Source: Nanobdellota archaeon
GTDB lineage: Archaea; Nanobdellota; Nanobdellia; Woesearchaeales; JAGLGH01
Reading direction: 5' to 3'
DNA: 10,375 nucleotides
Assembly (NCBI GenBank): GCA_023144115.1
Contig: JAGLGH010000168.1
Location: 1-10,375, forward strand
Under the pieces are notes generated by a model. That model did no database searches. It was not told where the DNA came from and saw only the letters and a list, made by a program, of their open reading frames with translations. Positions 603-3,494 of this stretch are shown one piece after another. The position numbers were made by a program, and so were the translations under genes. Every line of letters begins with the position of its first letter. Within the stretch, counting starts at the first letter, position 1.

Positions 603-1172
603 TTATGTCCTCACTTCGCCTTGGGGGTTTTGGGGAGAGTCTTTTGCCTCTTCAAGCCATTCAATCTTTCCCAGATTTGGCTGCCTCATAGTAAGACCTA
701 ATTTTGGATTGGTCACATCCTTATAAGATAATGCGATTATCCTTGCCCTGCAAAGGTCATTTACTTTCAGCACCTTGTGGCTCTCTTTGCCTGCAAGAGT
801 CTTCTCCTTTGAGAATGAAACAAAGTCATCCATTGTCTGTGATATATGTATCATGCCCTCAATAGGACCCATACTGATGAATGCTCCAAAATCAGCAATA
901 TCCCTTATCTTGCCAAGCACTACTTCCTGCAGTTCAGGCTTGAATGTAAGGAGCCTGAATTTAGCATGGTAATATGAAGCTCCATCACCAGGAATGATTA
1001 TCCCTTCTCTTATCTCATCAACAGATGACACATCAATCACTATGCCCAATTCCTGTGAAATATAACCATCATACTTGTTTTTTATCCTTTGTGTGATTGC
1101 TTCCTCAAGAGGAAGGTCAAACAGATTGGGCGGCACCCTTATATAATCTTTTATTTCTGTTCTGTAGAACAT
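603..1172 (-). CDS. rpo7: DNA-directed RNA polymerase subunit Rpo7 (E', RPB7 homologue)
   Basis: Stalk subunit of archaeal RNA polymerase, which with Rpo4 forms the arm that binds emerging RNA and helps open the promoter. The protein has 189 residues, normal for the family. Residues 1-80 form the N-terminal tip/RNP-like domain (MFYRTEIKDYIRVPP, then GDGASYYHAKFRLLTFKP). Residues 82-165 form an S1/OB domain with the expected EVVLGKIRDIADFGAFISMG and EGMIHISQ signatures. The last 20 or so residues are a variable acidic tail. It is first in rpo7-spt4-rps24e. The start at 1172 has a GAGGG motif about 10 nt upstream, rather far for a Shine-Dalgarno. The 5' region is unusually structured (see the hairpin array). 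The older name is rpoE1. Confidence 0.96.
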   Translation of the reverse strand: MFYRTEIKDYIRVPPNLFDLPLEEAITQRIKNKYDGYISQELGIVIDVSSVDEIREGIIIPGDGASYYHAKFRLLTFKPELQEVVLGKIRDIADFGAFISMGPIEGMIHISQTMDDFVSFSKEKTLAGKESHKVLKVNDLCRARIIALSYKDVTNPKLGLTMRQPNLGKIEWLEEAKDSPQNPQGEVRT

Positions 1173-1190
1173 TTTTTTAAATCCCTCGAT

Positions 1191-1210
1191 TAATATTCAT
1201 GATAATATTA
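1191..1210. repeat. AT-rich inverted repeat next to the rpo7 start
   Basis: TAATATT (1191-1197) and AATATTA (1204-1210) are exact reverse complements around a 6-nt CATGAT loop. The repeat sits 18 nt before the rpo7 ATG and abuts the first triloop hairpin. It could be an extra leader hairpin or an operator-like dyad; AT-richness makes a chance origin possible. Confidence 0.5.
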
Positions 1211-1308
1211 GTTGGAGAGCAAAGCTCTCTAACTTACTTGGAAAACGAAGTTTTCTAAGTTCTTAAGGAACTTCGTTCCTCAAGACTTAATAAGCTATGC
1301 TTATCAAG
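1210..1308. repeat. Tandem array of four triloop hairpins with shared architecture
   Basis: Four hairpins follow each other with starts at 1210, 1236, 1261 and 1286. In plus-strand terms each has an outer 3-4 bp stem, one mismatch, an inner 6-bp stem and a 3-nt loop. H1: outer GTT/AAC, mismatch g-t, inner GAGAGC/GCTCTC, loop AAA. H2: outer CTT/AAG, mismatch g-t, inner GAAAAC/GTTTTC, loop GAA. H3: outer CTT/AAG, mismatch a-c, inner AGGAAC/GTTCCT, loop TTC. H4: outer CTT/AAG, mismatch a-c, inner ATAAGC/GCTTAT, loop TAT. The inner stems differ in sequence but keep full pairing and always close the loop with a C-G pair. The internal position is always G-T or A-C, two geometrically similar wobble pairs. 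Structure is therefore conserved between units while sequence is not. Function is unknown. Leader RNA of rpo7-spt4-rps24e is the simplest reading. Confidence 0.85.
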
Positions 1309-1309
1309 A

Positions 1310-1318
1310 TATATAAAG
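1310..1318 (-). promoter_or_regulatory. Probable TATA box for the rpo7-spt4-rps24e operon
   Basis: Read on the minus strand this is CTTTATATA, containing the archaeal TATA consensus TTTATATA. Transcription about 25 nt downstream would begin near 1287, giving a leader of about 115 nt that holds all four triloop hairpins before rpo7. The site is nearly symmetric (TATATAAAG on the plus strand), so orientation is not certain. A rightward transcript antisense to the PIN gene is the alternative. Confidence 0.5.
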
Positions 1319-1358
1319 GAATAATAAGACCTTTAAAAAGGTTTGGTTTTAATTCATC

Positions 1359-1379
1359 AAAATTTGCTATGCAAATTTT
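1359..1379. terminator. Strong triloop hairpin downstream of the PIN gene
   Basis: A perfect 9-bp stem, AAAATTTGC (1359-1367) with GCAAATTTT (1371-1379), closes on loop TAT. It lies 66 nt beyond the PIN stop on the minus strand. It shares the GC-TAT-GC apex of hairpin H4 and resembles the palindrome at 7299-7325. It could serve as a 3'-end signal for the PIN transcript or be another copy of a dispersed palindrome family. No clear T-run follows, so the terminator label is tentative. Confidence 0.35.
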
Positions 1380-1444
1380 AATTCGTGGTTTTTTATACCC
1401 TATTGTTATATCTTATAGAGGAAGATTTTAAGGTCAAAATTAGA

Positions 1445-1874: not shown

Positions 1875-3494
1875 TCATAAGCCATGTTTTTTATATATAA
1901 AACTCAAATATCCTTCCCTTACTGATTGTACACAATCCTCTGTAAAACAGTAGCTGTATTTTTCTTTGGGAGGCCATTTTTTAACCCAGCAATCTCTGCC
2001 GTCGTCTGAGAGCCTGCCGCCTTCCTGTTTGCAGATCTCTGCTGCTTTCGGATATCCTGAACGCATCATATGAGATATGATCTTTTCCCTGCATTCTTTC
2101 TTTTTCTCTTCCACTTCACTTGGTCTTAAGTTGTTCATCTCTTTTATCCGTGATTTCATGTATTCTGTCAGATGTATTGTATCGCAGATATCAAGCGCAT
2201 TGCCCAAATCTGCTACATCATGCATGAGAGCTACCTCAATCTTGCAAGTTGAGACATACCTAAGTTCACCATATGGATCCCATTTGCCAAACACGATATT
2301 CTCGCAAATTCTCCAATTCTTTTCAACCAATGCTGTGCATAATATTCTGCTTGGCTCATGCTTTATCTTATTGCATGTGCCTATGTCTTTTGCGTTTTTG
2401 GCAATAATGTCATTGCATGTCTTCCAAAGAGATTCGTCATCTTTAAATTTATCACATGCTCTTGAGCTGGTCTCAGATGTGAATGCTTTTGCATAGCATT
2501 CTATGTGCTCAATATATGAATCTGGTATGCCTTTGCATATCTTTGTGTCACTCTCTTTTTCTGCGAAAGCTATCATACACCCATATTTTACTAAATCATC
2601 AGGTATGGCATTACAGTCTGACACATGCCCATCCTCAAGCAGCTCAGGCACAGTGAAATAATAACACCAGTCTATATAGGGGCTTCCAAACATCTTAGGG
2701 CATATTGATATATCTTTTTCAATCTTCAGGATACCTATCAGGCATTCATTAGGATCTCCTAAATTCATACAACCTTTATGATCCTGTGCTTTGATTGATG
2801 CAATTGTGTAGCATTGTTTGATGTCCTCCTTGTATCCATATTCATCTGTTATGTTTGCGCAGTATTGCCATTTTCCTGTTGAAGTTGCGTAATTGAAATA
2901 GCAATCATTCTTTTGAGATTTTTTTGGTATCATCTGACAGTATCCTAAATCTCCAGTTATATCTGCCGCTGCCAGATAGCAGTAGCTTTTTGCGATCTCA
3001 CTTGAGAGTTGTTCACAAATTTTTGTGTTTTTGGTCTTCTCGACTATGAATGCGTAGCATGCACCTATCATCTGTGACTGACCCATGCCTCCCATAGTTT
3101 TAATCTGATCGCAGTATGCTGTGTCAAGAGTTATCATCGCTTTGCACATCTTATCCTGCGATGTGGTGTCTTTTGTCATATTGCTCATCAGATCGCATAA
3201 GTCTTTGTCACCTTTTGCTAGGGCTACAGCCATTATGCATCCGTCCCTGAGAGGTCCTTCATCTATGTTTTTTATGCAGATATCAATATCTTTCTTATAT
3301 GCTGCAGATTTAGTAAAACAGGCTATCTTTTCTGCTTCAGAACTCATATCGATACAGTCTGCAGGGTTTTTGATAATCTCTTTTGAGATTTCTCTTGCTC
3401 CTGCTCCGGTGCCTGCACCCATTGGTTCTGTGCAGCCTGAGAGAACTATCACTGATAAGATAATTATTGTTAAAAGGATGATTTTGTGTTTCAT
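1875..3494 (-). CDS. Secreted lipoprotein built of paired-cysteine repeats
   Basis: A 539-residue predicted lipoprotein of unknown function. A hydrophobic signal (residues 5-18) ends in lipobox LSGC, with Cys21 the likely lipid-modified residue, followed by a Gly/Ala linker, so the chain should be anchored outside the membrane. Most of the mature protein is a run of short helical units with a recurring pattern, roughly C-x-x-I ... D-C-Y-x-x-x-A ... D-x-x-x-C, for example SYCYLAAADITGDLGYC and DCYFNYATSTGKWQYC. I count 35 cysteines: the lipobox Cys plus 34, which would allow 17 disulfides. The last 80 or so residues are charged, with Cys-containing blocks around CWVKKWPPK and YCFTEDC. The upstream radical SAM gene ends 23 nt before the start. 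A binding or scaffold role at the cell surface is inference. Confidence 0.85.
   Translation of the reverse strand: MKHKIILLTIIILSVIVLSGCTEPMGAGTGAGAREISKEIIKNPADCIDMSSEAEKIACFTKSAAYKKDIDICIKNIDEGPLRDGCIMAVALAKGDKDLCDLMSNMTKDTTSQDKMCKAMITLDTAYCDQIKTMGGMGQSQMIGACYAFIVEKTKNTKICEQLSSEIAKSYCYLAAADITGDLGYCQMIPKKSQKNDCYFNYATSTGKWQYCANITDEYGYKEDIKQCYTIASIKAQDHKGCMNLGDPNECLIGILKIEKDISICPKMFGSPYIDWCYYFTVPELLEDGHVSDCNAIPDDLVKYGCMIAFAEKESDTKICKGIPDSYIEHIECYAKAFTSETSSRACDKFKDDESLWKTCNDIIAKNAKDIGTCNKIKHEPSRILCTALVEKNWRICENIVFGKWDPYGELRYVSTCKIEVALMHDVADLGNALDICDTIHLTEYMKSRIKEMNNLRPSEVEEKKKECREKIISHMMRSGYPKAAEICKQEGGRLSDDGRDCWVKKWPPKEKYSYCFTEDCVQSVREGYLSFIYKKHGL

Follow-up and report, generated by a model that had tools for sequence, protein, structure and literature searches.

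The window (the whole stretch of DNA analysed, 10,375 nt) belongs to genome G000, an assembly that is 87% complete, and carries an array of hairpins in the region upstream of an rpo7 gene. The features referred to below are the following:

603 to 1172, reverse strand: rpo7 gene with SHS2_Rpb7-N and S1 domains, the apparent insertion lying in its upstream region
1210 to 1309, forward strand: whole array of 100 nt, interpreted from excision and folding as two nested 50-bp double-hairpin elements
1210 to 1234, forward strand: putative hairpin A of the outer doublet, AGTT-G-GAGAGC / AAA / GCTCTC-T-AACT, from hairpin scans
1235, forward strand: predicted first base (T) of outer hairpin B, separated from the rest by the nested insertion, from excision of 1236-1285
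1236 to 1285, forward strand: putative inner, inserted 50-bp doublet with hairpins A2 (1236-1260) and B2 (1261-1285), from excision and model match
1286 to 1309, reverse strand: predicted remainder of outer hairpin B, TCTT-A-ATAAGC / TAT / GCTTAT-C-AAGA after rejoining T1235

Elsewhere in the window, the reverse strand at 1875-3494 encodes a 539-aa cysteine-rich protein that lacks a Pfam match at E 0.001 and, judged by eye, starts like a lipoprotein.

A preliminary description of this DNA had placed four hairpins upstream of rpo7, and these were confirmed at 1210-1234, 1236-1260, 1261-1285 and 1286-1308, as was the architecture given for each, namely an outer stem, one mismatch, a 6-bp inner stem and a triloop with a C-G closing pair. 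The mismatch is G-T in units 1 and 2 and A-C in units 3 and 4. The four hairpins are real and lie far beyond chance. Five triloop hairpins of at least 9 bp were observed in the intergenic stretch 1173-1444, and 2000 dinucleotide shuffles of this stretch contained none 1963 times and one 37 times. Folding against shuffled controls, a check named beforehand, gave RNA energies for 1210-1309 of -39.9 kcal/mol on one strand and -40.1 kcal/mol on the other, the shuffled energy being about -19 kcal/mol (z -6.3 and -7.0, 300 shuffles per strand), and the corresponding DNA folding energies had z values of -5.8 and -6.5 (200 shuffles per strand). The count of four has to be supplemented by a fifth, different hairpin at 1356-1382 in the same intergenic stretch, which has a 9-bp inner stem and a C.A mismatch; no further match to it was found in G000 and no counterpart in the alignment with G001, a genome of the same genus. 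As had been stated, the array is neither a simple tandem repeat nor a CRISPR: no direct repeat covers a unit, and both stem and orientation vary between units. Rfam gave four matches in the window, all below the gathering score and none on the array, a tRNA search of the window gave no match, and Rfam on 20 loci returned SRP RNA and tRNA only.

The unit of this family appears, from comparison of its copies, to be a 50-bp doublet in which two 25-nt hairpins of opposite orientation directly adjoin. From foot to loop, each hairpin consists of 4 bp, a single mismatch (G·T or A·C), 6 bp and a triloop, and units can be oriented by the mismatch as NNTT-G-6 bp-RNA-6 bp-T-AANN. When 41 loci (14 from G000, 27 from G001) were scanned for hairpins in general, with any mismatch allowed, 107 hairpins were returned. 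Of these, 97 have a triloop and carry the mismatch at a distance of exactly 7 positions from it; 50 of these mismatches are G·T and 47 are A·C, and no other kind was found there in any triloop hairpin of the scan. The doublet-counting script requires G·T and A·C, and the evidence on mismatches is taken from the general hairpin scans only. This single mismatch, 7 positions from the loop, serves as a polarity mark, and both ends of the element bear the same mark because hairpin A is forward and hairpin B reversed. The alternation between two wobble-like pairs, remarked on previously, is indeed seen in the array and is explained by the strand orientation of the paired hairpins, as G·T and A·C represent one unit viewed from opposite strands. 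The inverted order (A forward, B reversed) holds in 50 of 50 doublets by definition of the script, and the general hairpin scans agree. The triloops are purine-first in 100/100 units and A-final in 94/100; we take them to resemble GCGAAGC, a very stable DNA hairpin.

Cutting out 1236-1285 joins T1235 to 1286-1309, resulting in AGTT...AACT TCTT...AAGA with 20/20 pairs, and also recovers the base pair that is missing in the short fourth unit. The array is thus best read as an outer doublet with a second doublet apparently inserted between its two hairpins. The inner doublet is itself a match of the doublet model (R2, E 4.8e-13), its sequence being part of the set from which that model was built. 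With respect to the extent of the array, the start at 1210 stands, while the end is moved from 1308 to 1309, since unit 4 has 25 nt in full, its first base, T1235, having been split off by the insertion.

Stepwise removal of doublets found 50 of them in 34 of the 41 loci of G000 and G001 (one Woesearchaeota genus), with one doublet in 20 loci, two in 12 and three in two; pairing is 20/20 in 43 doublets, 19/20 in six and 17/20 in one. Seven loci gave no doublet, four being at or near contig ends (L003, L008, L092, L093) and three having truncated or decayed copies (L005, L082, L094). On the forward strand, 35 uninterrupted doublets were counted against none in 20 shuffled rounds (90,112 bases). 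Nine further four-hairpin arrays decompose in the same way as that of the window, with an outer doublet pairing at 20/20 in eight and at 19/20 in L087. With flanks sorted by hand, 13 of the 16 nested doublets lie at the A/B junction, directly behind the initial T of hairpin B, and the other three at the 5′ edge of the B triloop, C^TTT (L002, L004, L086). As four-hairpin arrays recur in many copies, these 16 are not all independent events. Insertion into the element's own junction and triloop leads to arrays whose length is a multiple of 50 nt. Apart from T-richness, inspection of the flanks at the insertion sites showed no target motif. Such self-nesting makes the apparent insertion rule readable from the sequence, including the ends, the length, the target and the lack of duplication.

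The pairing within the doublet is closely maintained. The proposal of selection on shape with compensatory change agrees with 23 aligned doublets (22 distinct), in which 99.8% of 440 cells pair; the units were chosen as hairpins, which biases this figure toward pairing, and the compensatory counts and slid controls are the better evidence. Two-sided change was found in 13 of 20 pairs, with none of 500 shuffles as high, and one-sided change in only two of the 440 cells. With the second lineage (described below) added, two-sided change extends to 14 of 20 pairs, and one cell of 320 is one-sided. The number of further pair types is not above that of the shuffles in either count (446 and 451 of 500 as high), as would be expected where few types recur. 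Compensatory change between units had been taken to arise within the one array; the paired changes of the stems hold, but the four array positions each have largely their own sequence type, common to other arrays, from which we infer that no divergence took place inside the array of the window.

Similar arrays are widely dispersed. A search of G000 with window positions 1180-1440 gave 13 matches on 12 contigs, and those outside the window have both ends within the hairpins of the array or no more than 2 bases beyond it. Fifteen units, the window's own among them, were used to build a covariance model of the 25-nt unit, which had at least 36 matches in G000 at E <=0.1 (150 of 1190 candidates scored), four of which are the opposite strand of another, so that at least 32 distinct places on 14 contigs are represented. 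When run over 60 genomes, G000 included, the model matched seven at E <=0.01, and G001, the only one of the same genus, gave at least 63 matches at this threshold with part of the candidates scored; the search of related genomes suggested in the preliminary description thus finds similar arrays, many of them in this genome of the same genus. An exact-unit scan of 84,980 species, from which the window's own records are possibly absent, identified 23 stretches, 22 in Candidatus Woesearchaeota archaeon CSMAG_1005 and one in Nanoarchaeota archaeon RS_12_52. Six genomes matched in a sample of 371 from the phylum, all of the same order, the share of the 371 from outside that order not being stated. 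Exact-unit scans of viral contigs with two patterns found 0 places for each.

In one genome, G013, a single true A unit occurs, in a variant context, together with two looser units. Genomes G012, G016, G071, G072 and G128, with one weak match each, are not considered members, their hairpins being different or solitary. Related triloop hairpins, seemingly in frame in the N-terminal part of signal-peptide-like genes, were noticed by eye at L044 (G015), L101 (G033) and L097 (G013), with T.T and A.A mismatches occurring in those of L097 and L101. These in-frame hairpins presumably resemble the Rickettsia palindromic elements.

Filled and empty sites of the doublet, as aligned here, differ by exactly 50 nt with no apparent target-site duplication. 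In 19 of the 27 fetched loci of G001 the array occupies the same site within a larger palindromic host element, and perhaps represents one insertion carried along with it. This host element is 174 nt long with 14-bp inverted ends GTAAGTAAAAAGTC (L062-L081 and L102-L121; G001 and G000), and its end pattern, with at most one mismatch, has 144 matches in G001 and 20 in G000, compared with six in each for the reversed control. The best flanking 8-mer is identical in 15 of 35 copies and has one difference in seven of 35 by script-chosen boundaries, which are unreliable for L072, L081 and L086. Among the copies of the host element its stems vary in step (by eye) and other palindromes are nested inside; no autonomous partner of it was identified. 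Twenty copies without a doublet measure 173-175 nt. Eight copies have one doublet, and seven of these measure 173-176 nt after excision, the eighth (L069) having other inserts. In an ungapped comparison with empty copies of equal length, four of the excised seven show 93-97% identity and two about 70%, and one has no partner of that length. L078 and L102, for instance, differ by 50 nt at GAGT^TTTGA and are 97% identical once the doublet is excised. Excision, besides insertion, could be the source of some empty sites. Upstream of rpo7, the window aligns to the G001 ortholog with a score of 146 once the array is removed, compared with 126 before, and TATT^TATATAAAGG of the window then stands opposite TATTTAGCTATAAGGG; the flank to the left of the insertion aligns only loosely.

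A second lineage of doublets was detected with the doublet model, which was applied to 352 genomes of the order, 17 candidates being scored in each. Ten genomes matched at E <=0.001 and four did so richly, namely G000 (15 matches, two of these being opposite-strand echoes), G001 (17), G119 (13) and G120 (17), each out of the 17 scored. G119 and G120 belong to another family of the order, and their doublet differs in hairpin B but follows the 4-1-6-3 grammar with identical mismatches. It is often central in a larger inverted pair of hairpins, H1-H2, and 24 copies of H1-H2 lack exactly 50 nt (13 in G120 and 11 in G119, counted by hand). The six empty copies that were read all have TTTTGTA^TATACAAA (6/6); in one copy, G120:C10, the difference is 49 and not 50. 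An extrahelical base near each foot was noticed by eye in H1-H2 (L164-L183 and L199-L204). In some composites of G119 and G120, H1 or H2 is present on one side of the doublet only with other DNA opposite, and larger composites may therefore also move.

The exact 50-bp unit, its dispersal, the 50-nt difference between empty and filled sites, the insertion into palindromes and into itself and the paired stem changes are very probably the marks of a mobile double hairpin. The array of the window is best explained as two copies, one nested in the other, of a non-autonomous mobile element 50 bp long, apparently a double hairpin with no spacer, and the copy upstream of rpo7 would then be an incidental insertion. 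A structured RNA leader of the rpo7-spt4-S24e mRNA, offered originally as a protein-binding one and here also considered as regulating translation, would account for the position of the array 38-137 nt upstream of the rpo7 start and for its strong RNA fold on both strands, but is not borne out and is now extremely improbable. The same type of array is dispersed over many other places, and a hairpin scan found none upstream of Rpo7 in 7/7 relatives with an ortholog (eight searched), G001 being among those lacking it. In addition, the hairpins face both ways, so that half carry the A·C mismatch on either strand, and one-sided changes are confined to two of 440 cells, whereas an RNA would tolerate G·U. 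The case may serve as a warning that strong covariation within a genome need not imply a functional RNA. It is also very unlikely that the doublet is the cargo of the 174-nt element, acting as a transposon with terminal inverted repeats, and spreads with it alone; the shared site in 19/27 G001 loci would suit such an arrangement, but the copies in the window, at L070, L085 and L090, in nested positions and in G119/G120 are located elsewhere.

With regard to how the mobile double hairpin may spread, its exact ends and length, lack of duplication, polarity-marked inverted ends and palindromic sites fit single-strand transposition in trans. The element would move as folded single-stranded DNA, and an enzyme provided in trans would recognise its ends by their hairpin form, reading the strict pairing, the fixed mismatch and the R-N-A triloop. 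This single-strand, in-trans step is proposed tentatively. It is possible, if rather doubtful, that the enzyme is a Y1 (HUH) tyrosine transposase, which would cut and join single-stranded hairpins like REP doublets and IS200/IS605 ends. The inverted doublet, the fixed internal mismatch, the lack of target duplication and the palindromic location are in keeping with this, and three of the four doublet-rich genomes have Y1 genes; but these genes, in G001, G119 and G120, say little, as Y1_Tnp occurs in 125 of the 352 genomes of the order. No Y1_Tnp match was found in the incomplete assembly of G000, and the Y1 genes that were read (in G001, G119 and G013 and one of two in G120) have no adjacent A/B units. 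The hairpin foot also has no GTAG-type tag, with no space for a guide sequence outside the hairpin, and the archaeal Y1 proteins covered in one survey are of the IS200-type subclass 1.1 only (PMC6006769). Y1 transposases show no clear association with the doublets, and the mobile double hairpin is considered well supported and the class of enzyme a guess. A separate observation is that the Y1_Tnp gene at L047 (G001) has a hairpin, CTATTGGTC TTT GACCAATAG, downstream at 1917-1937, which is perhaps its own end. Spread with no dedicated enzyme, through template switching, end-joining capture or an RNA intermediate, is unlikely. It would agree with the one-sided composites of G119/G120 and with ends lacking duplication, as reported for the hairpin elements of Allomyces (PMC2800124), and RNA-mediated ligation has been proposed for yeast GC clusters (PMC4478555), but a quantum of exactly 50 nt with precise ends, seen in two families, argues for recognition of the ends. 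Equally doubtful as the Y1 route, the doublet might be a minimal archaeal mobile DNA consisting of only its two end hairpins, with an undescribed enzyme putting exact 50-bp doublets into the centres and loops of palindromes with no duplication. The 50-bp doublet may point to an enzyme still to be found.

A number of known systems resemble the mobile double hairpin in part. Like MITEs, the doublet would be short and non-autonomous with inverted terminal repeats, but it differs from these in that the whole element consists of its two repeats and in having no target-site duplication, the difference being exactly 50 nt with the bases on either side conserved. Elements of the IS200/IS605 group are not known to create a duplication on insertion. 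Their transposase reads small hairpins of about 20-25 nt, which as described are subterminal and accompanied by guide sequences and a conserved target tetranucleotide, whereas the hairpins of the doublet are its ends (PMC6006769). In bacterial REPINs, or REP dimers with RAYT, short hairpins in inverted orientation form the proposed replicative unit, which is present in many copies, and some dimers are inserted within palindromes (PMC3116915, PMC3733652). As far as these accounts go, the doublet is alike in having two inverted hairpins, in being multicopy and in residing in palindromes. It differs in its exact 50-bp length with no spacer, in nesting in its own junction and loop, in its archaeal host and in the lack of GTAG or CGTC directly at the hairpin foot (none in 34 flank types); no flanked transposase was found, there being no Y1 gene flanked in the REP manner in G000, G001, G119 or at one of the two Y1 genes of G120. 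The literature on archaeal and DPANN palindromic and mobile-hairpin elements, searched by title and with few subscription journals covered, does not name the 50-bp doublet. The organellar double-hairpin and repetitive hairpin elements and the yeast GC clusters are likewise hairpin elements thought to be mobile; flanking duplications are reported absent from those of Allomyces (PMC2800124), and short direct repeats flank the GC clusters (PMC4478555). As in the organellar double hairpins, two adjacent hairpins of the doublet enter as one unit with no duplication, but the doublet is set apart by its location on an archaeal chromosome, its inverted pair, the one fixed mismatch per hairpin and the exact quantum of 50 nt. 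Double-hairpin mobile DNA, known in bacteria and organelles, would thereby be extended to the DPANN archaea.
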